Source: Hericium rajendrae
Taxonomy: Eukaryota > Basidiomycota > Agaricomycetes > Russulales > Hericiaceae
DNA: 64,000 nucleotides
Direction of reading: 5' to 3'
NCBI GenBank assembly: GCA_033439255.1
Contig: JAVRDV010000016.1
Coordinates: 248,001-312,000 of the forward strand
Below the pieces are notes generated by a model that was not told the DNA's origin, ran no database searches, and saw nothing but the letters and a program-made list of their open reading frames with translations. Position 1 is the first letter of the stretch, and each line of letters starts with the position of its first letter. Position numbers and translations under genes: made by a program. Positions 3,601-25,290 of this stretch are shown here, in pieces.

Positions 3601-5679
3601 CGGGGGCCACTTTTCGTCCGTGATTACCTTGCTTGCCAAGGTGTCTCGCACCCTCATAATTCGTAGCGCCGAAACCAACGCAGACAACAGCTACAAACAT
3701 CGCAATTAGCGCCGTTGCTTGCTTCACGGTCGCAAAAAGCAGTATACTAACTATCCTCCTCTCCATATCACCGCAAGCCACTTTCCCAATCGTAAGTACA
3801 GTGCATATTTCCGCAAATACAGAGCATCATTACTGCCCACAGATTGTATGTGAGCGAACAGCACTGGTCGTGCCGTGAGGGTGGACCCATCTGGATCTAC
3901 AAAGTAAGTACACCGAGGCCAGTGTTCCGAACCGTACTAGTTAGTGCTTAGACATGTGTCAAATCACGCTTGGTCCACGAAAAAAAAGTCAGTGCACCTA
4001 TATGACTTGTATACGATAGTGTTCTGATATCGCTGCATTTGTATGGTACTTCGACTTGACAGGGCTGCGAGACTTCGGCTTGATGTCGCTGCGAGCATGA
4101 CCTTCGCGAGCGTGTTCTTTGCGACAGCTCGCAGACGACTTGTCGCAATTCATTTGGACCTGTCTCACCGTGACATAAGGCTGTCACCAACTCAATTCGA
4201 TCGATACAATAAGAACAGGTAAGGGTAAGACAGATCAATTTATTACAGGCTGAGAAGCAGGTCACTGAGCTGTGCGCTGACGGGAGGACTTCAAGGCTAT
4301 CGTGCTTGAGATGAGCAAGCACTGTACCGAGCCGCACCGCGTTTTTGCATCTAACAACATCTCCCCGCACATACTGTACCATCGACAACACGGACACTGA
4401 CGTTTCGTGCCTACGGCAGTCCCGACGGCATGCGCACCTCGCCTCACTCCGTCCCCACAAGTTGTGCGGCCACAGAACGATCTTCGCGATCCCTGAGCAC
4501 CAGCTCTGGGTATCTTCCAGCCCCTTGTACTTTCTCGCCCGATCGCAATACTTCGCACACCGACTCGGCCTTCAACAATCTCGCGCTACCCCAGCTCATG
4601 GCACGAGCTTTCCACGTCGCATACGCACACCTGATAACACCGGGCTCCCAGCAACATGCATGTGGTCTACACAATTCGCGCGTCCTGTCAGCAGCATGTA
4701 TACGACCCAAGCGATGTACTCGCGTTTTCAGCGTCGTGCGCACGGACTCGACCATGTGCGCATGCTCTCCGGTTCCCCATCGCTCCTCCCAGCTCCCCGC
4801 ACACGTGCCTCGATCGACCTCGAAGCAGTTCATCACCGCCGGTCCCAATGACGTGCAGGAGAAACCCCGATGACAACGCAGACGGAGAGTGGCCTGACCA
4901 CCACGGCGCCATGGCTCCGAGGCGCACGGCACTGAAGCCCTGCAATGAACCGACATGTGGGTCAAATTTGAAGCTCAGCATGCCGTGAAAGCGACCAATG
5001 CACATGGCACATCTGTTTGCAGAGAACGAGATCGAGATGTGGATTTTACGTAAGGCATAGGAAGCATACACTATGATGTGCCACTACTGTAGTAGTACAC
5101 TGCAAATACTACGGGGCACCACAATGTACATCGGTCGTCGTATGTTAATAAGGGCTACCAACATAGCTCTAGATTTATTGATAAGACCCAATCCATTCTG
5201 CAAGCAAGGTTTCTGCCGACGCAGTCGGCGCTTCCCCAGTCTGGCCCAGACATCCAAAAAATACGAATTTTTTCCTCCTGCGCCCTGCAGGCGCGGCGGA
5301 ACAAACTTTGTCGTTGTTCTGCGAGCTAGCTGCTACGGCAGCTCTGGACCAAGAACCGGCACCAGTTAGCGGCGAAAGCGAGGGTCAAGGTCATTCTTGA
5401 GGTCGGCACTCGGACAGGGCGCCTGCTTCATTGATTTTGGGCCCGATACTTTTGTCGGCTCCCACCCGGCGTGTGTGGTGGGGCACTGTGGGGCATCTGT
5501 GATTCGAGGCGGCGGGCGGCGACAAGCTGGCTGGGGACGACTCTCCGTGACCGGTCGCTTCACCTATAACGGAGAGCCCGGTTGCCGCCAGAAGACATCA
5601 TGTCCGGCATGGACCAGACCTCCTCCGGGACCCCCGTTGATGTCCGCGATATGGCCCACACAACCCTGCCCGAAGAGGC

Positions 5680-5752
5680 CCAAATATGTCCGTTCTGGCC
5701 CAGTGCTTGGCCACTTTGGTGCCCAATCGTGTCCGGCGCCGGCCCAGACATA
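5680..5752. repeat. Short dispersed repeat, copy 2
   Basis: It resembles the copy at 3508-3600, sharing GCCCAAATATGTCCG, GCCCAATCGTGTCCGG and GGCCCAGACATA in the same order with an extra insert in the middle. It directly abuts the left end of the TA-flanked element that begins at 5755. Confidence 0.35.
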
Positions 5753-6451
5753 TACAGTATTTGAGCACTCCTCGAGTTGCTATCGTTCCTCGAGTCACAT
5801 GCGATTTTTGCTGCGAAAGCGGGCTCTTCACCCTCGGACTTGATGCAGACTACGAGTAATATACTGTAGCTATGTACTACATGATTTTTGCTGCCCATGT
5901 TGCATTGGATGTGAAGATATTTAGCAAACACTGCAGAAACAAGCAAAATCCGAAATTTGTGGAGTGAATCTAATTGCCATGCCTGAGATCCACATCAGAT
6001 CCTTCAGGATATATCATGTATGATACAAATGCCATGTATCCTGACAATGTGCCTTGCCGTTGGTATACACAGATGTGTTATATCGACAAAATATGCATCG
6101 AGTCGGGGCGGCGCGAGCAGAGATGGAGCGCGCATCAGGTCACGTCACGCTTTGCTGCGCCTGCGGCAGAATGCGATCCCATCACCAATGACTGTAGATA
6201 TACCCGATTAGGAAAAATAGATGTCTGAGCGTGTCACGACTCGAGGACTGCAATTTGGCCGATAAGACAATTCTTCACTGATGTCCCTTGTTCGTCCGAC
6301 ACCCTCATTGATTTGACTCCGGAGGATGTCAGACTTATTCTATTTATGACAGAGAAGCTCGATCTAACAAAAAAATCACAATCAAGGAGCTCTCCGGGAT
6401 CCCACACGGTGAGCAAAATTTGGTCGACTCGAGGAGTGCTCAAATACTGTA
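5753..6451. mobile_element. Non-autonomous Tc1/mariner-like element (MITE-like)
   Basis: The two ends form a perfect 25-base inverted repeat, at 5753-5777 and 6427-6451. Both ends are bounded by TA, and the element proper opens CAGTATTTGAGCACTC and closes with the reverse complement ending ACTG. A TA target duplication plus CAGT...ACTG termini is the signature of the Tc1/mariner superfamily. The interior of about 695 bases holds only short open frames without a recognisable transposase, so this is a deletion derivative or MITE mobilised in trans. Its right end lies 10 bases from the left end of the giant palindrome. Confidence 0.65.
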
Positions 6452-6534
6452 AGGGAAATTGTAGGCTCGGACCTAACCGGTAATTCACACTCCGCAGGCT
6501 CCGTTTCCATTACCGGCTGGGCTACAATCGGCAG

Positions 6535-6580
6535 TTTTTGGCAGGCCAGCCAAAAGTGCTCGTTCGACTTAGTGAAATCG
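6535..6580 (+). repeat. Terminal inverted repeat core, copy A outer end
   Basis: It contains TTTTTGGCAGGCCAGCC and runs into CGTTCGACTTAGTGAAATCG. Just outside it, CCGGTAAT and ATTACCGG form a small inverted pair (about 6477-6515). Confidence 0.75.
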
Positions 6581-6663
6581 CGCGTCGCGCGGCACCAAAG
6601 GCAGAGCGCGTGTTCGTCTTAGCTGTTTTTTTTGGTCAATTATTACTCTGTACTAGCACACTA

Positions 6664-9600
6664 TTAATCTACATCAGCCTCCTCGAAGTCATCAGAGTCA
6701 CTCTCAAACTCAAGTTCATCATCATCACCCTCCTCTGCAATATTCTCTTCAAAAATAAGCTGGTCTGCATCCATATCCAATGCGACATCCTCCTCGTTCA
6801 CAAGCTCCAACTCGGGACTCACCCCGACATCGAGGTCTTCCTCCAAGTCTACATCTTCGTCTGTGTCATCGGTGTCACCTTCAGTTCCTGGCGCATCAGC
6901 AGCGCCGTCATCCTCGGACCCTAACATGGAGGCCCGGTAAGTAGGTTACATAGAAACTCAAGTGTTGTACTTACCAGATGATGAAAACACTGCTGATGGG
7001 AGAGACGAAGGCATCGAGGTGGGTGAACCTACTAAGGGACGCATCCGGCGCCGCCTCTGTAGGTTCCGAAATGTCTTGTTGAACTGGCGCAAAGGCGAGT
7101 TCAAGCCCCATGTGAGCGCACTGAAACCCTCAGCGACAACATCGGGCACGGGCTTGTCATCCTTTGTGAAGACACGACCCAGAACTTCGTGGTACACTTT
7201 GTTATGTTCAAGGCTTCCCATGAGCTCCTCGATGTCGCCAGTGAGATCGAGTGAAGCATGGTGGTTCCCTTGTTTCGCACCAAGGGAACTGTTGACCTCG
7301 GTTGCGAGGTCTCGAAGGAGTTGAATACAGGGCGAAATCGTGTGGAGCCACTCCCATGATGCACCGCTGCCGTGTGCCGCATAGAATATCTAGTACGACC
7401 CAATAAGAAATACAGTCATTCATATTCCGAGCTCTGAAGGGACGCACCTTGATCCAAAAATTTAGATGTTCTTGCATTAGATCCACCTCTACCCAACCAC
7501 TCGGCTTGCCAGTAGGATTAACGAGCCAGTTGTTGAGCACAATGTCCCTGTATTAAATAAGTCAGATGCCCAGGAGGGATCCGAGCAGAGAAAAGATCCC
7601 TCACATGACAGCAGGCAGCCAGACATGCTCAATGTTGTGAATCAGAAATAGAACCTCGTGCGCATACTTTGTGCGCCCTTGACCTCGAAAGCTAAAGGCC
7701 CAGACTTTGAGGATGACGAGAATACGGCCTGAATCTCCCGCCTTGATAGCATTTGAGAACGCCGCCAACAGTAAGGCGTCGCACAGGAAAAGGATGGCAT
7801 TCTCGAACACCATGTCACCGTGTGCATCACCATCCCGTGCCCGTGCGCGTCATAGTCTTGCAACCTGAGAAATATCTGTATACTCATTGTGAACGGCCTT
7901 GGCATACTCTCGAAGACGTTCCCATGTCAGGTCATCACCTAGATCCTCCAGAGAATGCTTGCCTGACACAAGAAGCACGCAATGCATAACGCGCGCATAA
8001 AGGGAGACAAAAATGAGGTCGCGACACGTTCGAAATGGTGGGAGAGACGTGGCAATGATGGGTTTGCGCTGCAGCGCCGTATTGTGTGCCAGGAGGGAAG
8101 CCGGGTTCGTAGATTCATGGTTCTGTAGCCCAAGGTGAGCGAGCAATAAACCGTGCATCGCTGCCATCTTGTAATGGAAGAGGCCAGGGACGAAAAGCGC
8201 CCATCGAAGCGAACCAGCGCCACCCTGGTTCCCCGCCCTTGTTGCCACGACTGCACGCAATCGTGCAATGGACAGCTGGTCTCCAGCGATCAGCTTCAGA
8301 AACTCGGACACTTGTAAGTCCTTCAGTCCAAGCTCTTGCATGATCGCGTCGATGACCTGAGCATTGCCGCTGGTAGTCGCTTCGTTGATGTTCATGGCCG
8401 GCAGAGGATGAATCTCTGTCTTGTGAACCTCGATTTTGTGCGACGAAATGGGTTCTGTCTTCCGAACATTGTCTTGGAATTTCTGAAGCTTTAATGCATT
8501 CCCAACAGCAATACGCAAGATTGTATGTTCGATACAGTCACTGTAGAGCTGACGCTCGCGTGCCGTCAATTTCAGATCATCTAGCGTGAGTGGTGGTGCC
8601 TTGTCGAATGATTCATCCAGGGTAGCAGTCTTCAAATCATCCTTGTTCGCCTTGAATAAGGGCACTATGGTAGCACAAGTGCCATTTTGCATTGTGTCTA
8701 TCCAACATGAAGTAAGTAAATTTGTATCTGCGTCATTTGGTCGATCGGCTTACCTATATGTCCGATGACTTGTTCACCTACCCGCCGTAACATGTTTATA
8801 TTATCATAAACTGTCAGGAAAAGGTTTGCCGCAGCGATCAGTTGGGCGAGGCGACACATTGAAATTGACAGCCGCTCGAGTGAGCCTAGACGGCGCTTCG
8901 ACGAGGAAGATGTCTTGTTAGCATTGGGTGCTTTGTCGGATGGAGTTGCTTCCACATCAACAGGGGGCAGTGGTTCCAAGTGAGCTTGTTTCCCGCCTGA
9001 TCCTGCCAATGTTGCATAACTGACGCTGATTCCTAAATGGTTCATCACGCTAATTTGCTGCCGCGATCCACCAGTTGAATAGAGATAGAGGCCAAGTACG
9101 TGTCGTGCGTATGAGTTTCGCTTACTTCTTGCTCCGATGAGGTTGATTGCAGTGGATTCAGCTAACTGTATACAATACAGACAATGTTAAAACACGAATT
9201 GTACAATTCTTAATACGTACGAAACTCTTCTCTTCCAGCAATTTCGATGAACCATGCGCTTTCTGCTGGTTCGATGTTGTTACCCAGTCAAGGCACTCCA
9301 TCAAGACTGGACAATGCTGGCGCATCAGTTGCCTGAGGTCATGAAGCTTCAGACCGAGCACGAATGAAGCATCAATGGCCCGGTTCCCAACTCGAAGGAA
9401 ACCCTCCTGCGTAACTTTCTGTGCTTCCTTTCCAATGATCCTGCTGACATACTCTGTTGACCATCTATGCAGGGTATTATGCACAGTGTCGGGCATCTCG
9501 TTGGATGAGCAGAAGTCAAGGACCTTGCACAAAATGCCAGAGTCGAAGAAGTTCTTCCACTGCCAGTCACGATCCAGGTTGCCCGAATCAAAAACGTAGG

Positions 9601-10057
9601 CCACAAGATCTGCAAACTTGAGTCCGTAGGTCTCGAGTATGCCCAGTGCACGGTCCAAGCCTTCCTTCCGATGTTTGGCAGCTGCCTCGTGTTCTTCGGC
9701 TGCACGCTGTGGCTTCTCCATGCGCTTTTGCGTGTTTATGGCTGTGATCTTCTGTCCAGCATACTTCCTTCCCTTGCGCTGATGGTCCTCCTTGTTTCGA
9801 ATAGGCGAAGACCAGATAACGCTAGTGTCATCACTTTGTAGAGCACTTGCAGAGCCCACAAGGTCTAGCGAAGGAAGAACACCGGTGGTATCTTCTCCGC
9901 CGTCACTTTTCCCAGAAGATGTTACATTGGGAGAATCCCATCGGTCTCGATGATCGTTCGAATGTCGTCCAATGTGTGGACTGCTTAGAGCTATTGGCGA
10001 GTCGGGGAGTACTGAGAGCGGTGAACTAGGTGGTAAGTCGGCCTTTTCCTCTGGCAT
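6664..10057 (-). CDS. DUF6589 protein, probable transposase, copy A (premature stop)
   Basis: This is the transposase candidate of the element. The first exon (10057 down to about 9222) gives a Ser/Pro-rich N terminus (MPEEKADLPPSSPLSVLP), a basic patch, then DRDWQWKNFFDSGILCKVLD. Later exons carry the DUF6589 hallmarks: LYLYSTGGSRQQISVM, YDNINMLRRVGEQVIG, LIAGDQLSIARLRAV, PGLFHYKMAAMHGL, KAGDSGRILVILKVWAFSFR, RTKYAHEVLFLIHNIEHVW, WVEVDLMQEHLNFWIK and AHGSGASWEWL. The C terminus is a long Asp/Glu tail ending EEADVD. Asp in DNIN, Asp in GDQ and Glu in MQEH are plausible metal ligands of an RNase H-fold DDE enzyme; this is inference. An in-frame TGA at 7850-7852, after SQVARL, stands where the family normally has an Arg-rich link. 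It would remove the last third, including the candidate Glu. Arm A also has Cys in FLCDALL where copy B has Arg. Confidence 0.75.
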
Positions 10058-10275
10058 TGAGGAAGAATGACCTGTGGTCCGAAAGTTATAGATCTAGGTT
10101 ATACAAAAAATAAGCTGTACGCACCGAAATTCAACAGAGAGAAAAATGACTGAGATGAAAAGTGCGTCGTGCGGCCAAACGAGCATTTGAATTTACAAGC
10201 TCGAGACCTGTGGTGTGCGTTCCCCACCTCTGCCTCCTTGTTAGGCTCTTACTGTCATTGTATTCTCTCAGAGAC
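10058..10275. promoter_or_regulatory. Divergent promoter region inside transposon copy A
   Basis: About 220 bases separate the divergent start codons of the DUF6589 gene (10057) and the helicase gene (10276). The helicase frame stays open upstream to 10162. I prefer ATG 10276 because the protein there begins MPLKHNPAIRRVRPVRNRAQ, a basic start. The shared region would couple expression of both genes. The same region lies at 17906-18123 in copy B. Confidence 0.5.
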
Positions 10276-13200
10276 ATGCCGCTCAAGCACAATCCTGCTA
10301 TACGCAGAGTCCGTCCTGTTCGCAATCGAGCACAGCGCCCAGCTCCTCCTCCCGCTCACAAGCTGACTCCTGAGGACGTTGCCGACCTGCGCTCACGCCT
10401 GAAGACCCAGCTCGGTGGACGAGAGCCTCGCATATTCCAACTGGATCTTGTGCAGGTGCAAGAAGAGCACCAGGATGCTCTATGCCAAGCTGCAACAGGA
10501 CAGGGCAAGACAGCCATCGCTGCTGGCCCCTACGTACTCGAGAAAAATGCTGGTCGAGTAACCCTCATGGTTTCGCCTCTGATAGGCCTACAGAATGAAA
10601 TGGTGCGAGTACAGCCTTTCAATATGTAATAGGAGTTTGCTAATTGCTCGACCCAGGCTGAGACATTCAAGGATGAATTCAAACTATCTGCAATTGCAGT
10701 TAACAGCTCCACCCACGGCGGATGCTCTTCGGACCTAATGACTGTACGCATTTTCTCCCTTGATATTGTCTCACCTCAAACTACTCCCAGGAAATTGTTG
10801 AGGGCAAATTTCACATCGTTTTGTTGTCCCCCGAAATGCTTCTATCTTCGCCGTTCATCAACGGAGTCCTGCGTCATCCCGACTTCGCGTCTCGCATATA
10901 TTCTGTTATCATCGACGAAGCACATTGTATATCGCATTGGGGGGCTGATTTCAGGAAACAATACGGCCAGATAGGCATGATTCGAGTATTTTTGCCTCGC
11001 GACATCCCGATCATTGCGGTTTCTGCTTCGTTAACGGAGCGAGTCATACAAGACATTGTCCGTACCCTACAACTGGACCGGTCGAACTATCTCTCTTTAG
11101 GAACCTGGGCAACGATCGTGCAAACATTTCACTTGTCGTCCATGCCATTCATAATCCACAGTCCTCATATAGTGATCTCGACTTTCTGATTCCCTCCACT
11201 GTCACCTCACCGTTGGACATCCCCAAGATATGGATATATGCCGACAATATTGACACCGGAACTGACATCATCGACCACCTTCGCTCCTTGCTACCCGAAG
11301 AATACCACGAGTCCATTCGACCGTACAACGCTGTACATGACGATGAGTACCGCAAGCGGGCGATGGAGCTCTTTCGAGAGGGTACAATCCGAATACTAGT
11401 ATGCACGGATGCTGCAGGAATGGTATGCTGCTGTATTCCTCAGCGCTTGATATATAATTGACACAATCTTGTACACCTCCAGGGGTGTAACATTTCCGAC
11501 ATTGATGTCATCGTGCAATGGAAACTGCCCGCTAAGCTCTCAAGCTTCATCCAGCGTGCTGGACGTGCCGCTCGCAACCCTAGCCGTCAAGGTCTTGCCG
11601 TATTACTTGTCGAGCCCGCGGCATACACTATTTCCACATCTACGAAGAATACTGAGGTGTCCAACAAAGGTTCCAAAGGGAAGAAGAACAATGGCCATGC
11701 CAAGGGTACTGGACAAGGCTTCTGGAAGAAAGCCACAATTAAAGGGCATGCAGCGAGTCACGGGCGATTCTGTGGTGCGTGTACTTGTCAAGATGCGATC
11801 CCAGCCTGCGACGAGCCAAGGTTTGAGTGCGACGATCCTTCGGAAGGCTTGTACAACTTCATTCAAGCTACAACCTGTCGACGAAACATCCTTGTTGATG
11901 TTTTCCACAATCCCAAACCAAGTGAGTGTGCCTTCTCTGTACGACTTGTATTGGATACCAGAGTACTCACCATGAGTCGTTACAGATCCTACCGTTCCGT
12001 GCTGTGATCTATGTGACCCCACATTACTCGACCGTACGTGCCCCGGCATCCGCAAGGTTTCACGCGGCCGAGGTATTCAGTATGCAGCGCAGCCATGCCA
12101 TAGCCTCCTCGAGGCGCTGGATCGCTGGCGCGATGACATCGTAGCGTGCGATGAGCCGCAGTCGCTATTCCCGTCGACCTGTATCCTCCCAGATTTCGCT
12201 GTCGAAAAGCTTGCGAAGCTCGCCCTACCGCTTTCCCCGGGCAACATTCAGAGCTTTCTTGCACCACAGTGGCCTTTGTGGGCGAAGTATGGCCAAGAAC
12301 TCACTAATATGATGGTGGCAGTCGATACTTGCAGTTATGTGTCGATTTCCGATCCTCAGGAATCGGGCTTTAGTGCTACGCAGGCAAAACGTGCCCGAGT
12401 GGCCCCCGAAATTGAAGATATGTCAGCTTCTTCAACGCCGGATCATGACCAGCAGGACATCATCGACATCGCTCCAGCTCGCAAGAAGGCTCGTCTCATT
12501 CAGTCCAAGCCAAACGAGGGAACCTCGTTTACAAACCAGCACGCCACATTCCATGTCAACCCACAGCCTGCAGCTCCAACGATTCAGCAGCAAAGCACTT
12601 CGACATTCGGCACTCGTGTGGCAGTTCCGATGCTGGCACACGATGTTCCCCAGTCATCATTCCCAATACTAGTCCCTTCCCCTTCGTCTCTCACCATACC
12701 GACATCGCACGGTATTGGTCCAGTGCCCGCTCACCCATCGTTCGTTACCACATCCATGCCGACAACTCGTAAATGTACCGGACATCTGACAAGCCAATAT
12801 AGTGTTGCGCCAGCCGAAGCGCTGCATCGCCACGTGCACCTGCTGCACACCTCGGGACCTGCCATGCCGCCGCCCTCGTTCGAGCCATCAAGAATCCCCA
12901 ATGGCGGCATGCGAGCCCCATCCGAAGCGCACCGGTCGTACATGCCATACGCTTCGGGGTCTTCCCTGCCGCCGCCCTCATCCGACCCAAGATATCCGAA
13001 CGGCGATGCACCAGCCCAAGCCCAAGCGCACTGGATGTACACCCCGCACCCCTTGGGGCCTGCCCTGTCGCCACCCTCGTTTGAGCCAGCAAGGATCCCC
13101 CACAGTGGTGCACCAGCACAAGCACAATCGCACCGGCCATACACGCCATACCCTTCGGGGTCTGCCATGCTGTCTCCCTCATTCGAGCCAGCAAGATACC

Positions 13201-13745
13201 CCAACAATGGTACACCAGCCCAAGTGCACCGTCTGTATACGCTGCACTCCTCGGGGCCTGGGCTGCCGCCGCCCTCGTTCGAGCCGGAAAGATTTCGCAA
13301 AGGCGGCGTACCAGCACAAGCACAAGCGCAGCGGCTGTACACGCCGCACCCCTCTGGCCCCGCCTTGTCGCTCCCCCCGTTCGAATCATCAAGAAACCCC
13401 AATAGCGGCGCACCGGCAGAAGCGCAGCTATACAGGCTATACCCTTCGCAACCTGACCTCACGCCGCCGTCGCTCGAACTCGCGAATCGCGCCACAGCTG
13501 CGCCATACATACCTCAATCATACGAATCTCCCAGCGTCACACAAGGCATACCTTTCGCGGCTGAAGCACATATGCCACTCTGGTCAGAACATGACCCAGC
13601 AGCCTTTGCGCCTCCAGTCACACCTGCACGTCAATACGTGAACACGCAGCTCTCATCACCTCATCACAACCTCATGTCATCCTCGTATCCTTATGACCCA
13701 TATTCTCATAGGCAACACTACCCTAATACAGGCCCACAAGCATAA
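10276..13745 (+). CDS. RecQ-type SF2 DNA helicase, copy A (frameshifted)
   Basis: This is an ATP-dependent 3'-5' DNA helicase of the RecQ branch by motif, presumably helping transposition or repair at the element. In order it shows a Walker A motif (AATGQGKTAIA, near 10490-10515), VSPLIGLQNEM, a DEAH box in IIDEAHCISHWGADFRKQY (near 10905-10960, the RecQ signature), SAS as motif III, IWIYADN, ILVCTDAAGM followed by GCNISDIDVIVQW (motif V) and FIQRAGRAARNP (motif VI). A Cys-rich region follows (RFCGACTCQDAIPACDEPRFEC, written here in parts: RFCGACTC and IPACDEP). The C-terminal 300 residues are Pro/Ser-rich tandem repeats. Arm A has two extra bases (TC) near 11093, between motifs III and IV, which shifts the frame relative to copy B. 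Its long C-terminal frame, 12276-13745, is intact. Several introns are present. Confidence 0.75.
12818..13490 (+). repeat. Coding tandem repeat in helicase tail, copy A
   Basis: About six and a half imperfect copies of a 32-35 residue unit. The consensus begins HRLYTPHPSGPALPPPSFEP, then a basic residue, PNGGAP and AQAQA. Repeats start roughly at the codons for HRHVHLLH, HRSYMPYA, HWMYTPHP, HRPYTPYP, HRLYTLHS, QRLYTPHP and YRLYPSQP. The segment is Pro/Ser/Ala-rich and probably disordered. The mirror copy is near 14698-15370. Confidence 0.8.
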
Positions 13746-13986
13746 TATCCTTGCAGATATACCCAGCAACCGAATTAGACAAGCATTGCATCAGATTAGT
13801 GACTAGACCTAGTAGAAGCTCGACTTGGTCCCGATTTCTTATTGAACTGGCTTGTATAAAAGGCATCGTATGTTGCAAATAGTATGTACAATCGAAATGA
13901 GTTGGTTTGGAGAAGGATACATTGTAGAGATGCATTGAGGCGGCCTTGCGTACTCGAGCAAGCAAAGGGAAAGCACGTTGAATGCA

Positions 13987-14031
13987 CGATTTCACTAAGT
14001 CGAACGAGCACTTTGGGCTGGCCTGCCAAAA
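13987..14031 (-). repeat. Terminal inverted repeat core, copy A inner end
   Basis: The core reads inward as CGATTTCACTAAGTCG and ends GGCTGGCCTGCCAAAA. It is the inverse of 6535-6580 with a few mismatches. Confidence 0.75.
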
Positions 14032-14156
14032 TCGGCCCGAGTTAGCCCAGGCCGTATGCAGCAAGCTCGGCTTGCCCGGCTGCTAACGACTCCGACGAAA
14101 AGCAGCCGGGCAATTCGAGCTCAGCTGCACCGACGGCCTGGGCTAACTCGGGCCGA
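14032..14156. other. Asymmetric centre of the palindrome
   Basis: Pairing is perfect through the GAGTTAGCCCAGGCCG block but becomes imperfect from about 14056. The two terminal sequences (TGCAGCAAGCTCGGCTTGCC against TGCAGCTGAGCTCGAATTGC) differ by several changes and one base in length. The two copies of GCCCGGCTGCT are then separated by about 16 unpaired bases (AACGACTCCGACGAAA). The two inner termini are therefore not exact copies, although the rest of the arms nearly is. Confidence 0.7.
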
Positions 14157-14201
14157 TTTTGGCAGGCCAGCCCAAAGTGCTCGTTCGACTTAGTGAAATC
14201 G
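14157..14201 (+). repeat. Terminal inverted repeat core, copy B inner end
   Basis: The core reads TTTTGGCAGGCCAGCC and ends TTAGTGAAATCG. It is the mirror of 13987-14031. Confidence 0.75.
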
Positions 14202-14442
14202 TGCATTCAACGTGCTTTCCCTTTGCTTGCTCGAGTACGCAAGGCCGCCTCAATGCATCTCTACAATGTATCCTTCTCCAAACCAACTCATTTCGATTGT
14301 ACATACTATTTGCAACATACGATGCCTTTTATACAAGCCAGTTCAATAAGAAATCGGGACCAAGTCGAGCTTCTACTAGGTCTAGTCACTAATCTGATGC
14401 AATGCTTGTCTAATTCGGTTGCTGGGTATATCTGCAAGGATA

Positions 14443-17400
14443 TTATGCTTGTGGGCCTGTATTAGGGTAGTGTTGCCTATGAGAATATGGGTCATAAGGA
14501 TACGAGGATGACATGAGGTTGTGATGAGGTGATGAGAGCTGCGTGTTCACGTATTGACGTGCAGGTGTGACTGGAGGCGCAAAGGCTGCTGGGTCATGTT
14601 CTGACCAGAGTGGCATATGTGCTTCAGCCGCGAAAGGTATGCCTTGTGTGACGCTGGGAGATTCGTATGATTGAGGTATGTATGGCGCAGCTGTGGCGCG
14701 ATTCGCGAGTTCGAGCGACGGCGGCGTGAGGTCAGGTTGCGAAGGGTATAGCCTGTATAGCTGCGCTTCTGCCGGTGCGCCGCTATTGGGGTTTCTTGAT
14801 GATTCGAACGGGGGAGCGACAAGGCGGGGCCAGAGGGGTGCGGCGTGTACAGCCGCTGCGCTTGTGCTTGTGCTGGTACGCCGCCTTTGCGAAATCTTTC
14901 CGGCTCGAACGAGGGCGGCGGCAGCCCAGGCCCCGAGGAGTGCAGCGTATACAGACGGTGCACTTGGGCTGGTGTACCATTGTTGGGGTATCTTGCTGGC
15001 TCGAATGAGGGAGACAGCATGGCAGACCCCGAAGGGTATGGCGTGTATGGCCGGTGCGATTGTGCTTGTGCTGGTGCACCACTGTGGGGGATCCTTGCTG
15101 GCTCAAACGAGGGTGGCGACAGGGCAGGCCCCAAGGGGTGCGGGGTGTACATCCAGTGCGCTTGGGCTTGGGCTGGTGCATCGCCGTTCGGATATCTTGG
15201 GTCGGATGAGGGCGGCGGCAGGGAAGACCCCGAAGCGTATGGCATGTACGACCGGTGCGCTTCGGATGGGGCTCGCATGCCGCCATTGGGGATTCTTGAT
15301 GGCTCGAACGAGGGCGGCGGCATGGCAGGTCCCGAGGTGTGCAGCAGGTGCACGTGGCGATGCAGCGCTTCGGCTGGCGCAACACTATATTGGCTTGTCA
15401 GATGTCCGGTACATTTACGAGTTGTCGGCATGGATGTGGTAACGAACGATGGGTGAGCGGGCACTGGACCAATACCGTGCGATGTCGGTATGGTGAGAGA
15501 CGAAGGGGAAGGGACTAGTATTGGGAATGATGACTGGGGAACATCGTGTGCCAGCATCGGAACTGCCACACGAGTGCCGAATGTCGAAGTTGCTGCTGAA
15601 TCGTTGGAGCTGCAGGCTGTGGGTTGACATGGAATGTGGCGTGCTGGTTTGTAAACGAGGTTCCCTCGTTTGGCTTGGACTGAATGAGACGAGCCTTCTT
15701 GCGAGCTGGAGCGATGTCGATGATGTCCTGCTGGTCATGATCCGGCGTTGAAGAAGCTGACATATCTTCAATTTCGGGGGCCACTCGGGCACGTTTTGCC
15801 TGCGTAGCACTAAAGCCCGATTCCTGAGGATCGGAAATCGACACATAACTGCAAGTATCGACTGCCACCATCATATTAGTGAGTTCTTGGCCATACTTCG
15901 CCCACAAAGGCCACTGTGGTGCAAGAAAGCTCTGAATGTTGCCCGGGGAAAGCGGTAGGGCGAGCTTCGCAAGCTTTTCGACAGCGAAATCTGGGAGGAT
16001 ACAGGTCGACGGGAATAGCGACTGCGGCTCATCGCATGCTACGATGTCATCGCGCCAGCGATCCAGCGCCTCGAGGAGGCTATGGCATGGCTGCGCTGCA
16101 TACTGAATACCTCGGCCGCGTGAAACCTTGCGGATGCCGGGGCACGTACGGTCGAGTAATGTGGGGTCACATAGATCACAGCACGGAACGGTAGGATCTG
16201 TAACGACTCATGGTGAGTACTCTGGTATCCAATACAAGTCGTACAGAGAAGGCACACTCACTTGGTTTGGGATTGTGGAAAACATCAACAAGGATGTTTC
16301 GTCGACAGGTTGTAGCTTGAATGAAGTTGTACAAGCCTTCCGAAGGATCGTCGCACTCAAACCTTGGCTCGTCGCAGGCTGGGATCGCATCTTGACAAGT
16401 ACACGCACCACGGAATCGCCCGTGACTCGCTGCATGCCCTTTAATTGTGGCTTTCTTCCAGAAGCCTTGTCCAGTACCCTTGGCATGGCCATTGTTCTTC
16501 TTCCCTTTGGAACCTTTGTTGGACACCTCAGTATTCTTCGTAGATGTGGAAATAGTGTATGCCGCGGGCTCGACAAGTAATACGGCAAGACCTTGACGGC
16601 TAGGGTTGCGAGCGGCACGTCCAGCACGCTGGATGAAGCTTGAGAGCTTAGCGGGCAGTTTCCATTGCACGATGACATCAATGTCGGAAATGTTACACCC
16701 CTGGAGGTGTACAAGATTGTGTCAATTATATATCAAGCGCTGAGGAATACAGCAGCATACCATTCCTGCAGCATCCGTGCATACTAGTATTCGGATTGTA
16801 CCCTCTCGAAAGAGCTCCATCGCCCGCTTGCGGTACTCATCGTCATGTACAGCGTTGTACGGTCGAATGGACTCGTGGTATTCTTCGGGTAGCAAGGAGC
16901 GAAGGTGGTCGATGATGTCAGTTCCGGTGTCAATATTGTCGGCATATATCCATATCTTGGGGATGTCCAACGGTGAGGTGACAGTGGAGGGAATCAGAAA
17001 GTCGAGATCACTATATGAGGACTGTGGATTATGAATGGCATGGACGACAAGTGAAATGTTTGCACGATCGTTGCCCAGGTTCCTAAAGAGATAGTTCGAC
17101 CGGTCCAGTTGTAGGGTACGGACAATGTCTTGTATGACTCGCTCCGTTAACGAAGCAGAAACCGCAATGATCGGGATGTCGCGAGGCAAAAATACTCGAA
17201 TCATGCCTATCTGGCCGTATTGTTTCCTGAAATCAGCCCCCCAATGCGATATACAATGTGCTTCGTCGATGATAACAGAATATATGCGAGACGCGAAGTC
17301 GGGATGACGCAGGACTCCGTTGATGAACGGCGAAGATAGAAGCATTTCGGGGGACAACAAAACGATGTGAAATTTGCCCTCAACAATTTCCTGGGAGTAG

Positions 17401-17905
17401 TTTGAGGTGAGACAATATCAAGGGAGAAAATGCGTACAGTCATTAGGTCCGAAGAGCATCCGCCGTGGGTGGAGCTGTTAACTGCAATTGCAGATAGTTT
17501 GAATTCATCCTTGAATGTCTCAGCCTGGGTCGAGCAATTAGCAAACTCCTATTACATATTGAAAGGCTGTACTCGCACCATTTCATTCTGTAGGCCTATC
17601 AGAGGCGAAACCATGAGGGTTACTCGACCAGCATTTTTCTCGAGTACGTAGGGGCCAGCAGCGATGGCTGTCTTGCCCTGTCCTGTTGCAGCTTGGCATA
17701 GAGCATCCTGGTGCTCTTCTTGCACCTGCACAAGATCCAGTTGGAATATGCGAGGCTCTCGTCCACCGAGCTGGGTCTTCAGGCGTGAGCGCAGGTCGGC
17801 AACGTCCTCAGGAGTCAGCTTGTGAGCGGGAGGAGGAGCTGGGTGCTGTGCTCGATTGCGAACAGGACGGACTCTGCGTATAGCAGGATTGTGCTTGAGC
17901 GGCAT
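14443..17905 (-). CDS. RecQ-type SF2 DNA helicase, copy B (tail frameshifted)
   Basis: The same gene as 10276-13745, read from ATG 17905. Here the central helicase exon is whole: 17360 down to 16722 runs without a break from MLLSSPFINGVLRHP through DEAH, the SAS motif, SNYLFRNLGNDRANISLVV and IWIYADNIDTGTD to LVCTDAAGM. Motif VI (QRAGRAARNP) follows at about 16640-16610. The tail is broken. Four bases present in copy A (near 12595) are missing near 15590, and one C of the six-C run is missing near 14812, so the repeat tail changes frame twice and ends at a different stop near 14547. An Arg replaces Cys in the RFCGAC motif. The motor domain is thus intact in B and the tail is intact in A. Confidence 0.75.
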
Positions 17906-18123
17906 GTCTCTGAGAGAATACAATGACAGTAAGAGCCTAACAAGGAGGCAGAGGTGGGGAACGCACACCACAGGTCTCGAGCTTGTAAATTCAAATGCTC
18001 GTTTGGCCGCACGACGCACTTTTCATCTCAGTCATTTTTCTCTCTGTTGAATTTCGGTGCGTACAGCTTATTTTTTGTATAACCTAGATCTATAACTTTC
18101 GGACCACAGGTCATTCTTCCTCA

Positions 18124-21100
18124 ATGCCAGAGGAAAAGGCCGACTTACCACCTAGTTCACCGCTCTCAGTACTCCCCGACTCGCCAATAGCTCTAAGCAG
18201 TCCACACATTGGACGACATTCGAACGATCATCGAGACCGATGGGATTCTCCCAATGTAACATCTTCTGGGAAAAGTGACGGCGGAGAAGATACCACCGGT
18301 GTTCTTCCTTCGCTAGACCTTGTGGGCTCTGCAAGTGCTCTACAAAGTGATGACACTAGCGTTATCTGGTCTTCGCCTATTCGAAACAAGGAGGACCATC
18401 AGCGCAAGGGAAGGAAGTATGCTGGACAGAAGATCACAGCCATAAACACGCAAAAGCGCATGGAGAAGCCACAGCGTGCAGCCGAAGAACACGAGGCAGC
18501 TGCCAAACATCGGAAGGAAGGCTTGGACCGTGCACTGGGCATACTCGAGACCTACGGACTCAAGTTTGCAGATCTTGTGGCCTACGTTTTTGATTCGGGC
18601 AACCTGGATCGTGACTGGCAGTGGAAGAACTTCTTCGACTCTGGCATTTTGTGCAAGGTCCTTGACTTCTGCTCATCCAACGAGATGCCCGACACTGTGC
18701 ATAATACCCTGCATAGATGGTCAACAGAGTATGTCAGCAGGATCATTGGAAAGGAAGCACAGAAAGTTACGCAGGAGGGTTTCCTTCGAGTTGGGAACCG
18801 GGCCATTGATGCTTCATTCGTGCTCGGTCTGAAGCTTCATGACCTCAGGCAACTGATGCGCCAGCATTGTCCAGTCTTGATGGAGTGCCTTGACTGGGTA
18901 ACAACATCGAACCAGCAGAAAGCGCATGGTTCATCGAAATTGCTGGAAGAGAAGAGTTTCGTACGTATTAAGAATTGTACAATTCGTGTTTTAACATTGT
19001 CTGTATTGTATACAGTTAGCTGAATCCACTGCAATCAACCTCATCGGAGCAAGAAGTAAGCGAAACTCATACGCACGACACGTACTTGGCCTCTATCTCT
19101 ATTCAACTGGTGGATCGCGGCAGCAAATTAGCGTGATGAACCATTTAGGAATCAGCGTCAGTTATGCAACATTGGCAGGATCAGGCGGGAAACAAGCTCA
19201 CTTGGAACCACTGCCCCCTGTTGATGTGGAAGCAACTCCATCCGACAAAGCACCCAATGCTAACAAGACATCTTCCTCGTCGAAGCGCCGTCTAGGCTCA
19301 CTCGAGCGGCTGTCAATTTCAATGTGTCGCCTCGCCCAACTGATCGCTGCGGCAAACCTTTTCCTGACAGTTTATGATAATATAAACATGTTACGGCGGG
19401 TAGGTGAACAAGTCATCGGACATATAGGTAAGCCGATCGACCAAATGACGCAGATACAAATTTACTTACTTCATGTTGGATAGACACAATGCAAAATGGC
19501 ACTTGTGCTACCATAGTGCCCTTATTCAAGGCGAACAAGGATGATTTGAAGACTGCTACCCTGGATGAATCATTCGACAAGGCACCACCACTCACGCTAG
19601 ATGATCTGAAATTGACGGCACGCGAGCGTCAGCTCTACAGTGACTGTATCGAACATACAATCTTGCGTATTGCTGTTGGGAATGCATTAAAGCTTCAGAA
19701 ATTCCAAGACAATGTTCGGAAGACAGAACCCATTTCGTCGCACAAAATCGAGGTTCACAAGACAGAGATTCATCCTCTGCCGGCCATGAACATCAACGAA
19801 GCGACTACCAGCGGCAATGCTCAGGTCATCGACGCGATCATGCAAGAGCTTGGACTGAAGGACTTACAAGTGTCCGAGTTTCTGAAGCTGATCGCTGGAG
19901 ACCAGCTGTCCATTGCACGATTGCGTGCAGTCGTGGCAGCAAGGGCGGGGAACCAGGGTGGCGCTGGTTCGCTTCGATGGGCGCTTTTCGTCCCTGGCCT
20001 CTTCCATTACAAGATGGCAGCGATGCACGGTTTATTGCTCGCTCACCTTGGGCTACAGAACCATGAATCTACGAACCCGGCTTCCCTCCTGGCACACAAT
20101 ACGGCGCTGCAGCGCAAACCCATCATTGCCACGTCTCTCCCACCATTTCGAACGTGTCGCGACCTCATTTTTGTCTCCCTTTATGCGCGCGTTATGCATT
20201 GCGTGCTTCTTGTGTCAGGCAAGCATTCTCTGGAGGATCTAGGTGATGACCTGACATGGGAACGTCTTCGAGAGTATGCCAAGGCCGTTCACAATGAGTA
20301 TACAGATATTTCTCAGGTTGCAAGACTATGACGCGCACGGGCACGGGATGGTGATGCACACGGTGACATGGTGTTCGAGAATGCCATCCTTTTCCTGCGC
20401 GACGCCTTACTGTTGGCGGCGTTCTCAAATGCTATCAAGGCGGGAGATTCAGGCCGTATTCTCGTCATCCTCAAAGTCTGGGCCTTTAGCTTTCGAGGTC
20501 AAGGGCGCACAAAGTATGCGCACGAGGTTCTATTTCTGATTCACAACATTGAGCATGTCTGGCTGCCTGCTGTCATGTGAGGGATCTTTTCTCTGCTCGG
20601 ATCCCTCCTGGGCATCTGACTTATTTAATACAGGGACATTGTGCTCAACAACTGGCTCGTTAATCCTACTGGCAAGCCGAGTGGTTGGGTAGAGGTGGAT
20701 CTAATGCAAGAACATCTAAATTTTTGGATCAAGGTGCGTCCCTTCAGAGCTCGGAATATGAATGACTGTATTTCTTATTGGGTCGTACTAGATATTCTAT
20801 GCGGCACACGGCAGCGGTGCATCATGGGAGTGGCTCCACACGATTTCGCCCTGTATTCAACTCCTTCGAGACCTCGCAACTGAGGTCAACAGTTCCCTTG
20901 GTGCGAAACAAGGGAACCACCATGCTTCACTCGATCTCACTGGCGACATCGAGGAGCTCATGGGAAGCCTTGAACATAACAAAGTGTACCACGAAGTTCT
21001 GGGTCGTGTCTTCACAAAGGATGACAAGCCCATGCCCGATGTTGTCGCTGAGGGTTTCAGTGCGCTCACATGGGGCTTGAACTCGCCTTTGCGCCAGTTC

Positions 21101-21517
21101 AACAAGACATTTCGGAACCTACAGAGGCGGCGCCGGATGCGTCCCTTAGTAGGTTCACCCACCTCGATGCCTTCGTCTCTCCCATCAGCAGTGTTTTCAT
21201 CATCTGGTAAGTACAACACTTGAGTTTCTATGTAACCTACTTACCGGGCCTCCATGTTAGGGTCCGAGGATGACGGCGCTGCCGATGCGCCAGGAACTGA
21301 AGGCGACACCGATGACACAGACGAAGATGTAGACTTGGAGGAAGACCTCGATGTCGGGGTGAGTCCCGAGTTGGAGCTTGTGAACGAGGAGGATGTTGCA
21401 TTGGATATGGATGCAGACCAGCTCATTTTCGAAGAGAATATTGCAGAGGAGGGTGATGATGATGAACTTGAGTTTGAGAGTGACTCTGATGACTTCGAGG
21501 AGGCTGATGTAGATTAA
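18124..21517 (+). CDS. DUF6589 protein, probable transposase, copy B (premature stop)
   Basis: Mirror copy of 6664-10057 with the same exons and domain hallmarks: YDNINMLRR, AGDQLSIARLR, FHYKMAAMHG, DLMQEHLNFWIK and an acidic tail. It keeps Arg in FLRDALL, where copy A has Cys, and has Met in DDKPMPDV, where copy A has Val. It carries the same in-frame TGA as copy A, at 20329-20331. The stop therefore predates the duplication that made the palindrome, or was spread by conversion. Downstream of the TGA the frame stays open and conserved (ENAILFLRDALLLAAFSNA), so the stop looks recent. Confidence 0.75.
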
Positions 21518-21600
21518 TAGTGTGCTAGTACAGAGTAATAATTGACCAAAAAAAACAGCTAAGACGAACACGCGCTCTGCCTTTGGTGCCGCGCGACGCG

Positions 21601-21646
21601 TGATTTCACTAAGTCGAACGAGCACTTTTGGCTGGCCTGCCAAAAA
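21601..21646 (-). repeat. Terminal inverted repeat core, copy B outer end
   Basis: It starts TGATTTCACTAAGTCG (one base different from the copy A outer end) and ends GGCTGGCCTGCCAAAAA. The outer extension to 21719 mirrors 6462-6534. Confidence 0.75.
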
Positions 21647-21727
21647 CCGCCGATTGTAGCCCAGCCGGTAATGGAAACGGAGCCTGCGGAGTGTGAATTA
21701 CCGGTTAGGTCCGAGCCTAGTCTTTCT

Positions 21728-23336
21728 ACACTCAGCTTATTGCGAGACTGCATTCACAGGTTGACCTTCCTGTGTCATCGGAGATATCGCGTAAGCTCGA
21801 AGGTTTATATGTATCGTATCCTTCGTTGATCGGCATCATGCTGCTGTGGGAGATAGAATACGGTGAGGCTCTGGAGTATACGACACTTCGCCGTTCTTTG
21901 ATAAGTTCTGCAGCCATGCAGACCATAGAGGATAAGACGACGGGATCTGCTGTGTCCATCAAGGTCTCAATCCATGCTTGATCATCGGCGTATCGCTAGG
22001 GCATGACACATGGGTCGTTCTGTCAAAGATACTAGGCCCAGACTAGAACAACAAAAAAGCCAGATTGATGGGTCTTGCCAACTTCCAAGTCGGGCCATGC
22101 AGGTCACGAGTAGTCAACGTTCGACAGACTCCCAGAGCGCCGTGCAGCAGACAATTGGACTAAACCTTCATCATCACTTCGGGCTCACGGGGTCGTTCGG
22201 CCTTCGAAGCACTCGCTCGGTGTGTGGCATGGTCTTTTACTTCAATACGTCGCTCATAACACTGTCGCGTTTATCAAGCATCTCCTCGTCTCAGCCGCAT
22301 AACCCGGCCCTCCAGAGCAGTATAACCATGATTCAATGCGGTCAGTGTGACCGTTTCTTTCAATCCGCCTCTGATTTGAACGCGCACTGTCGGGCCGAGG
22401 CTGACCATCTCGATTTCTATTGCGACGCCTGTTCGAAGTCCTTTGCACACGAGGTAGCCTTAGAGGATGTGCGTGCCCATCGTCTCAACTCCGACCTCTA
22501 TCGTCTACCAAAAATGTACTGATTGAGCTGCAGCACCTCCGAGGTGCACTGAACCATCAGGGAAACCCAGACGACCACGCAGCATATGACAACTTTCTGT
22601 CACGTTCTGATGATGGAGGCACGGAACCGTATTGCGCGATATGCAGTCGATGGTTCGCTAGCGTGGACAATTTGTATCAACATCTTGCGGAATCCAAGCG
22701 ACACAACTGGTGCTTCATCTGCTGGCGAGACGGATTTCCTAGAGCAAGTATGCATCTTGTCCTTGGATATACGTCGGATCAGATAGATACTCATGCATGA
22801 TGACTGCAGCACCATGCCTTGCCAGCTCACGGAGTCCGTGACGTACACTGCCCGCTGTGCAAGGCTACATTCAAGACGCTCTCGTCCATCGCCGTGCACA
22901 TCGAGTCGGGCGAATGTCATAAGATCCCGCGCCATCAAGCCACCGCAGCTGTACCGTCACCACCCATCGCACCCACCACCTCGCTTCCGCACAGCACCCA
23001 GGCTCGCTCCTCGCTGGCGCCTCGGGCCATGATGACCAACGGCGCCACCGAGCTCGCCTTCAACGGCACCGCGTACGAGTGTTGCCTATGTCACCGCGTT
23101 TTCAAGACGCTGGCGGGGCTGGATTCGCATCTCGGCTCCGCGGCGCACGACCGGGGTGAGCACAAGTGCCCGAAATGCGAGGTCGTGTTCATGTTGGTTT
23201 CGGGGCTGGTCCAGCACGTGGAGAGCGAGGAGAGTGGGCCGGTGAAGTTCGAGAAGGTTCATCGCCAAGTGCGCCCGTTGACGGGTCAGTTCGCGCGGAT
23301 GATGGCGAGGATCACTGAGGGGTCACGTTAACGAGC
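21728..23336 (+). repeat. Tandem duplication unit 1 (zinc-finger gene plus upstream DNA)
   Basis: This unit is homologous to 23685-25290. The upstream non-coding parts also match, for example TTATTGCGAGACTGCATTCAC against TTACTGCGAGACCATATTCAC, and CTCGAAGGTTTATATG against TTCGAAGGCTTATGG. The whole gene with about 600 bases of leader was therefore duplicated. Homology starts almost at the palindrome edge. Confidence 0.6.
22328..23331 (+). CDS. C2H2 zinc-finger protein, copy 1
   Basis: A multi-finger C2H2 protein, function unknown, possibly nucleic-acid binding. It starts at ATG 22328 (MIQCGQCDRFFQSASDLNAH). The exons are 22328-22468, 22534-22747 and about 22825-23331. The first intron splits the second finger, so CDACSKSFAHEVALED joins HLRGALNH. 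Using the acceptor after TTGCCAG (22824) keeps the frame into THGVRDVHCPLCKATF. Visible fingers are CGQC...H, CDAC...H, CAICSRWFASVDNLYQHL, CFIC, CPLCKATFKTLSSIAVHI, CCLCHRVFKTLAGLDSHL and CPKCEVVFMLVSGLVQHV. His spacing is often wider than the canonical 3-5. Relative to the downstream copy, exon 2 is shorter near CWRDGF, which the alternative acceptor compensates. Confidence 0.65.
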
Positions 23337-23684: not shown

Positions 23685-25290
23685 ACCAAGTCTCATGATC
23701 TTCCTTCGACGCTTTCTGCTTACTGCGAGACCATATTCACGGGTGATTATTCTCGTGTCCGTCGGCCGTGGATAGGCGGAGATATTGCCTCGCTTCGAAG
23801 GCTTATGGATTCCTTCATTGATCAGTTTCACACTGCTCCGGAAGCTAGGAATATATAGAATTCTGTGAAGTATTTGACTGCTTTCCCATCCTTTTGGCAG
23901 TCGAGCTGACAACAGAACGCAGAAGGACGGGATCAACGCCGTCAATCTCGTGGATTCTCAGTACATCGCCATAGTCTCGTGTTGCGATTGCGACAGAGCA
24001 TGGCCAACACGGCGAAGGATCCGCGCTGATAAACCTCGCCAGCCTCTGATCGGGCTATGTAGGTCATAGGAAGACATGTCTTGTGAATCGGCGAACTGAC
24101 GGGGCTCGCCGAACGCATGATGGAGCGCTGCTTAGCAGAATATTCCATTGACCACTTCTATTATCGCTTCTCTTCGATTCATGGCACTGTCACCCTTTCG
24201 AAGCGCCAGTCCGGTGCACAACATGATATTTTACCTCATATCTCTGGTACGCCCTTTATAATGACGTTCCCCTCCTCCGGCATTTCCTCATTCTGCGATC
24301 TCTGATTATCCAGGACAGAGTCGAATCATGTTCGAGTGCTGCCAGTGCGACCGTTCCTTTAACTCTACTTCCGCTTTGGACGCGCATTGTCGAGCAAAAG
24401 CTGACCATTCTGGTTTTTCTTGCTGTGGACGGATCTTCGCACGTGAAGAGCATTTGCAACAGGTTCGTATGAATCATCTCGAATGAGGACTGTATCTTCT
24501 GCAGATGGGCAATTGATTCCTTTGTAGCACCGCCAGAATTCATCCAATCATCAGGAAGATTCCGACGATTCTTCGTCAAGCTCCGAGGATGAAGACGTAG
24601 AGCCGTATTGTGCGATATGCCAGCGATGGTTTGGTAATGCCGAAAGTTTACATCAACATCTCGCGAGCCCTCGACACAACTGGTGCTTCGTCTGCTCGCG
24701 AGATTTCGCATCTGAGTCGTCCCTAGAGCAAGTAAGTATCCTACCCCCGATACATGGCGGATCGGAGCCTCACGCACCACGGTTGCAGCACCAAGCCTCG
24801 CCCGTACACACAGAGCGGGACCTACAATGCCCTCTGTGCAAGAAGGGGTTCAAGGCGCACTCGTCCATCGCCTTGCATATCGAGTCAGGTGCATGTCACA
24901 ATATCTCCCGCCATTAAGTCACTGTGGTAATACATTCCCTGCCCATCGTGCCCACCATATCACTGTCGCATCGCATCGAGGTCGACTCGTCGCCAGCACC
25001 CCGGACCATCACGAATCACAGCGCCACGGAGCTCGCGTTCGACGGAACCGTATACGAGTGCTACCTATGTCACCGCATATTCAAGACGCTAGATAGACTT
25101 GATCTCGACTCGCCGGCGCACGACGAGGACGAGTTCAAGTGTCCGAAGTGCAAGGTTACATTTAAGTTGGTGTTGAGGATGATCTAACACGTTGAGAGCG
25201 AGGCGCGCGGGCTGGCGAAATTCGACTAGATGCAGGACCGGGTGGGCACGTTGACGAATCAGTTCACTAGGCAGCTCAGATTCCAATGAT
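23685..25290 (+). repeat. Tandem duplication unit 2
   Basis: The second copy of the zinc-finger unit is diverged from unit 1 throughout (roughly 70-80 percent by eye). The duplication is therefore much older than the palindrome next door. Confidence 0.55.
24328..25187 (+). pseudogene. C2H2 zinc-finger protein, copy 2, decayed
   Basis: A paralogue of the gene at 22328 with the same exon plan. It starts MFECCQCDRSFNSTSALDAH, has a donor after HLQQ (GTTCGT), then reads EPYCAICQRWFGNAESLHQH, WCFVCSRDFASESSLEQ and CPLCKKGFKAHSSIALHI. Two kinds of damage are visible. The second finger has lost residues between its cysteines (SCCGRIF against YCDACSKSF). A TAA at 24915-24917 stands where copy 1 has CAA, ending the protein after ACHNISRH. 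The last two fingers (YECYLCHRIFKTL, CPKCKVTFKL) remain readable downstream but outside that frame's product. A shortened protein of about 150 residues could still be made. Confidence 0.6.

Follow-up and report, generated by a model that had tools for sequence, protein, structure and literature searches.

How does a DNA transposon come to lie in a genome as two copies joined tail to tail, and is such an arrangement real or a product of assembly? The question is raised by a 15-kb palindrome in a 64,000-nucleotide stretch of the genome of the fungus Hericium rajendrae (assembly GCA_033439255.1, contig JAVRDV010000016.1, here C16, positions 248001-312000; hereafter the window), which we analysed together with the genome as a whole (46.8 Mb in 19 contigs). 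The palindrome is probably a modestly aged dimer of an AcademH-like transposon, formed most likely by foldback at the element's own 3′ hairpin.

Two arms with one 3′ hairpin

Self-BLAST of the window returned a single inverted match that spans the palindrome at full length (6462-21719) with 99.56% identity, the imperfect centre included; its length is far above chance expectation. In a global alignment the arms measure 7593 and 7586 bp and differ by 14 substitutions and three indels of 2, 4 and 1 bp, which corresponds to 99.8% identity outside the centre and a divergence of 0.18%. An earlier note on this sequence had claimed a near-perfect palindrome of 15 kb, a net difference of seven bases and an identity of about 99.8%; all three hold, and the palindrome is confirmed in the sequence as assembled. 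The left arm (6462-14055, forward strand) runs from the 5′ end of the element (TAGGCTCGG) to the base of its 3′ hairpin, and the right arm (14133-21719, reverse strand) is an inverted second copy that terminates exactly at the element's 5′ terminus. The left outer end (6462-6520, forward) consists of a TAGGCTCG terminus and, as read by eye, the inverted repeat CCGGTAAT..ATTACCGG; the right outer end (21661-21719, reverse) is its inverted form. An inner terminal inverted repeat of about 70 bp and 89% identity (6514-6583, forward) has its partner at 13984-14054.

The centre (14046-14142, forward) is one unfolded 3′ subterminal hairpin with an imperfect stem, a loop near 14085-14100 and the bases CCCAGGCCG and CGGCCTGGG. 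The innermost 20 mirror positions, from 14036/14152 to 14055/14133, pair perfectly, and the spacer of 77 bases between 14055 and 14133 is the imperfect hairpin itself; a 108-base centre folds at -49.7 kcal/mol (DNA parameters). Related 3′ ends, in the genomic pieces L047 and L050, read CCGACGGCCTGG(A/G)TTCGAGGCTA. In the palindrome, the bases after CGGCCTGG are GCTAACTCGG, which exactly mirrors the bases that precede CCAGGCCG across the hairpin, and this mirror sequence stands where the related elements have (A/G)TTCGAGGCTA. The start of the inverted arm coincides with the hairpin base, and the canonical last 11 bp are absent. Because the mirror starts right after CGGCCTGG, both copies use one hairpin and both are without the last 11 bases. 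The description of the palindrome as two inverted copies of one transposon is therefore right as to the two copies, but they do not have a 3′ end each: one 3′ end is common to both. Other related 3′ ends are more variable: that of L052 is changed, L051 carries an 8-base insertion, L049, L007 and L048 are altered or truncated, and L005 and L053 stop earlier.

Both outer boundaries are exact 5′ termini of the transposon, and the flanks next to them differ. The left 9 bp (GGGAAATTG, 6453-6461, forward) and the right 9 bp (GTCTTTCTA, 21720-21728, forward) are identical at two of nine positions, so the palindrome as a unit has no target duplication. Transposition of the palindrome as a unit with target duplication was rejected on this count; when the ends were shifted by up to 15 bases, the best agreement was 75% (8-mers), and the best shifted matches listed all lie within or overlap the element ends.

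Relatives of the element

We file the arms provisionally as an AcademH-like DNA transposon of about 7.7 kb, each arm of which encodes the domain DUF6589. AcademH, a lineage of Academ DNA transposons, is reportedly due to Kojima in 2020. The element resembles AcademH in its terminal inverted repeats, its helicase gene, the 9-bp target duplications of some of its relatives and its low copy number; it differs in the absence of a target duplication here and in the tail-to-tail fusion of two copies, which have one 3′ end between them. In excerpts of the respective papers, AcademH target duplications are given as 9 or 10 bp (PMC10045372) and AcademH as low-copy in fungi (PMC10799480).

Related elements in the genome terminate in TAGNCT. 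One complete relative (C11:1226626-1234295, 7670 bp) starts with TAGACTCG, ends with CGAGCCTA, is flanked on both sides by AGTCATAGG and has terminal inverted repeats of 187 bp (84% identity); a second, L043 (C11:588 kb), is flanked by AGTCTTTCG. Scattered through the genome are short relatives in which the 5′ end is fused to the 3′ hairpin; four that were measured (L050, L007, L049 and L052) are 112 to 172 bp long, and L050 has GGGCTGCCG on both sides. A 9-bp target duplication was found in four of the seven relatives examined: the flanks agree at 9/9 positions in the C11 relative, L043 and L050 and at 8/9 in L052, as against 3/9 in L049 and 2/9 in L007, both of which have altered 3′ ends. 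At the seventh, L042, no 9-bp duplication was seen, and its ends (CAGACTCC) differ from those of the other relatives; the flanks of L042 and L043 were scored by eye. Lacking one recognisable end, L005, L047, L048, L051, L053, L054, the C10 element and two C14 fragments were left unscored. In L042 (345-6815), inverted repeats of 333 bp enclose matches to DUF6589 and the helicase; as the repeats are 100% identical, the element is probably recent.

No third copy of the arm subfamily was listed when the genome was searched with the DUF6589 exon, the centre, the outer end or the helicase, each of these searches scoring its best candidates only. Next after the arms came matches of 82% for the DUF6589 exon, 58% for the helicase and 89% for the outer end (outer end only), and partial or short pieces for the centre, relatives of which stand at nine genomic places besides the window among the matches listed. 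A whole-arm query (7.6 kb) listed C14 pieces (76% over 1.8 kb) and missed even the window's own copies, which the shorter queries found, and is therefore no proof that further copies are absent. Contiguous matches to outer end and centre on C1 and C12 were considered as empty target sites and rejected; on reading they are short non-autonomous relatives. Nor was an empty site found by paralogous flanks: elsewhere the left flank matches only repeats (parts of 5000-5754), and the right flank matches only its tandem neighbour.

Divergence of the arms

All 14 substitutions between the arms are transitions, and 12 of them are CpG-type (CG in one arm, CA or TG in the other), an excess with p about 2e-6 given that 24% of the C and G bases lie in CpG. 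Relatives on C14 cover 11 of these sites and agree with the right arm at eight, with the left at two and with neither at one; changes seem to have fallen more in the left arm than in the right, some positions aligning poorly. As a control we used a dispersed 8.3-kb pair on C14, which has 24 substitutions, of which 21 are transitions and 15 CpG-type, at a divergence of 0.29%. Because the two spectra are alike, the arms have diverged much as real genomic repeats do, and they look like two genuinely aged copies rather than the product of a fold-back read. That the palindrome is very young, one of three options offered in the earlier note, is true in a relative sense only, its 0.18% being of the same order as the divergence of the C14 pair. 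The lying of both copies in one molecule as assembled, which reads alone can show, is probably genuine.

The substitutions are unevenly placed. Eleven of the 14 fall in the outer 1.78 kb of the arms (a limit picked after looking at the data), which hold 106 of 464 CpG sites. A Kolmogorov-Smirnov test against a uniform distribution gave p 1.6e-4 for the substitutions and p 0.003 with the three indels included, and a simulation over either end gave p 0.00065 for the clustering of substitutions. Unevenness in the C14 pair does not reach significance (p 0.15); the part of this pair that is related to the outer arm holds seven of 24 substitutions and 131 of 579 CpG sites. Arm-to-arm conversion in the inner part is suggested as the simplest reading of this clustering, which may instead stem from uneven methylation. 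Maintenance of the palindrome by gene conversion, another option of the earlier note, is suggested but not proved by the outer clustering of substitutions; all three indels lie in the inner part, which argues against complete homogenisation.

Origin of the palindrome

The reading that we favour, at a probability of roughly one half, is that the palindrome is a linear tail-to-tail dimer, made when a transposase-type break at the 3′ end folded back and primed synthesis, and then sealed in by end joining. An AcademH-like transposon of about 7.7 kb would first be broken through both strands at its 3′ terminus, a transposase cut being the simplest cause. The 3′ strand would fold on the subterminal hairpin that the element itself carries, its last 11 bases, left unpaired, would be trimmed away, and synthesis primed at the fold would copy the whole element to its 5′ terminus, giving a linear dimer with one unfolded hairpin at its centre and two 5′ ends outermost. 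End joining would then seal this dimer into the chromosome and leave no target duplication; later the arms would collect CpG transitions, while their inner three quarters were probably held alike by arm-to-arm conversion. The two arms, their common hairpin, the loss of 11 bases, the exact 5′ ends, the lack of a target duplication and the CpG spectrum are seen in the sequence, and from them we infer the break, the foldback synthesis, the end joining and the conversion. The geometry of fold, flap loss and primed synthesis is suggested because the arms have one hairpin and lack the last 11 bases; an inverted repeat at the centre and loss of the distal sequence, two features of foldback inverted duplications, are both present. 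The exact termini on both sides are as expected from an excised element, and the absence of a 9-bp duplication, though four of seven relatives have one, fits end joining of an excised dimer; it fits two separate insertions as well.

Work in yeast (PMC10622511) has demonstrated that foldback annealing takes place at inverted repeats close to breaks, with polymerase delta trimming the flap and fill-in completing the process. Those foldback inverted duplications share with the palindrome a natural inverted repeat at the centre, a lost distal flap and an arm copied back, but here copying of the arm stops exactly where the transposon ends and does not continue along the chromosome. The same likeness and difference would apply to the Tetrahymena ribosomal DNA palindrome, to which that paper refers. 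One base of the hairpin stem may bear on the fold: the palindrome has AAGCTC where the five alignable small elements (L005, L007, L048, L052 and L053) have ATGCTC, and the change restores pairing with the opposite side of the stem. L049 is diverged at this site, and L047, L050 and L051 are without it. Such a change is the trace expected from partial correction of a folded strand, a weak hint given that it is one base only.

Several observations weigh against the foldback origin. Direct repeats of 8-9 bp, CGGCCTGG(G), could give the same junction by deletion between tail-to-tail insertions. Untrimmed, exact joining of both 5′ ends is atypical of end joining. Had the transposase moved the dimer, a 9-bp duplication should be present, and there is none. 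In the excerpts of PMC10622511, the clones analysed from sae2-deficient yeast had their stem mismatches corrected; mismatches persist in the palindrome.

Two insertions, one at GGGAAATTG and one of a nearby inverted sister copy at GTCTTTCTA, followed by loss of the centre through slippage between the CGGCCTGG(G) repeats at the hairpin bases, are the main rival and a possible, if less likely, source. Two events would leave unlike 9-mers at the outer ends and exact termini at both sides, the direct repeats sit exactly at the junction, and long palindromes are prone to lose their centres. But members of a subfamily with no third copy listed would have had to land close together and tail to tail, and the deletion would have had to end precisely at the hairpin bases on both sides; as no third copy was listed, one duplication is therefore simpler than two independent insertions. 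From this sequence, the two-insertion origin and foldback cannot be separated. An assembly artefact is unlikely. Arms of 7.6 kb at 99.8% identity may mislead assemblers, whether through a fold-back read or through the misjoining of two copies, separate or allelic, and a misjoin of two real copies may be compatible with both the spectrum and the flanks. A fold-back read would be expected to leave arms that are identical or differ by random errors, and would mirror the flank too, yet the outer boundaries are exact ends with unlike flanks, and 14 of 14 substitutions are transitions, 12 of them CpG-type, with a similar spectrum in an unrelated dispersed pair. The earlier suggestion of an assembly product, in its simple fold-back form, is accordingly disfavoured.

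It is very improbable that the dimer is a regular intermediate, the subterminal hairpins of AcademH-like elements serving as self-priming ends and excised elements regularly going through linear dimers with hairpin caps, a step like that of parvoviruses in a eukaryotic DNA transposon, with the palindrome as an integrated example. Rolling-hairpin replication operates on linear DNA with hairpin ends, and the centre does resemble a dimer bridge in which an imperfect hairpin lies unfolded; unlike such replication, the palindrome, a single example, carries no sign of a replication cycle or a nicking enzyme. In the window element a strong hairpin sits just inside the 3′ end; the C11 element has such hairpins at both ends, the C10 element at one and, by eye, L043 at both. 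No strong hairpin was found at the L042 end or at the window element's own 5′ end, where an 8-bp inverted repeat goes unused in the lowest-energy fold of 6462-6583, and subterminal hairpins may be transposase binding sites only. The lack of a target duplication also speaks against a regular intermediate. Palindromy as a habit of the family was rejected: no long palindrome occurs in the C10, C11 and C14a elements or in 14 further pieces around DUF6589 matches, each of at most 9.9 kb, in which centres lying outside would escape.

Foldback at the element's own hairpin would make the locus a candidate natural case of a transposon end seeding a very large palindrome, and would tie transposase breaks to foldback inverted duplication. 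Such duplication is described as common in cancers and in yeast without Mre11 nuclease activity (excerpts of PMC10622511). The family, as provisionally assigned, and the class of mechanism are known, and the product is unusual; among the papers listed in literature searches there was no description of a palindromic AcademH dimer, which is weak evidence of novelty. On an evolutionary scale the event is a single, local one within a transposon lineage already known, and the aged arms provide a small natural test case for gene conversion between the arms of a long palindrome.

Genes in the arms

In each arm, DUF6589 and RecQ-type helicase exons are divergent. The left DUF6589 exon (7850-8692, reverse strand) encodes 280 amino acids with a Pfam match to PF20231 (E 4.4e-68), and the right one (19489-20331, forward) differs from it by one residue; against sequences of the Protein Data Bank (PDB), DUF6589 had no match up to E 1. 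The helicase region occupies 10162-12007 on the forward strand of the left arm, where the frames 10162-10629 and 10821-11189 match DEAD and the frame 11513-12007, without a Pfam match, is counted in by position. In the right arm it occupies 16176-18019 on the reverse strand, with Pfam and PDB sequence matches; its frame 16722-17360 has a DEAD match, a Helicase_C match below the cut-off and matches to RecQ, WRN and BLM chains. DEAD passes the curated Pfam cut-off and Helicase_C stays under it, and the helicase matched 36 distinct PDB sequences (RecQ, WRN, BLM, RecQ5 and RecQ1; best E 2.4e-12). An extra TC at 11090, absent from the right arm, shifts the frame of the left helicase, and AAGC and one C, present in the left arm, are missing from the right in a downstream open frame of 489 codons that has no Pfam match; the arms are therefore differently damaged.

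By tblastn at E 1e-4, DUF6589 was found in 14 of 20 genomic pieces, the helicase in eight and both in seven (on C11, C10, C2 twice, C4 and C9 twice). At C16:50-70 kb, the genome search picked up DUF6589, and tblastn the helicase.

Neighbouring sequences and other repeats

Fragments with 80-81% identity to the terminal repeat of the C11 element occur at C19:120766, C19:177224, C11:77749, C11:2255160, C10:2290599 and C9:22215; on C9, C10 and C11 they are less than 80 kb from a contig end. A tie between these pieces and RecQ genes was considered and dropped, as no RecQ match adjoins them among the matches listed. The two 8.3-kb repeats on C14, L027/L028 (about 398.7-407.0 kb) and L029/L030 (1378.0-1386.3 kb), are 99.6% identical, contain a truncated AcademH-like end of 1.8 kb and reach well past it. 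L030 also has inverted blocks of degenerate tandem repeats at 5032-9600, up to 94% identical over 1.36 kb.

To the left of the palindrome, 10 bp from its first 5′ base, lies a repeat (5753-6451) with exact 25-bp inverted ends, TA-CAGT...ACTG-TA, which we take to be a non-autonomous element of Tc1/mariner type; it abuts a repeat of 515 bp, of which C8 has a 97% identical copy. To the right, 22624-23292 and 24600-25265 are tandem copies (72%), just past an open frame with C2H2 zinc-finger matches. ARAGORN found no tRNA gene in the window. Pfam matches in the window, which like the type of element would fit an agaricomycete fungus, include pieces of an FG-nucleoporin, DyP, mitofilin, ATG22 and trehalase.

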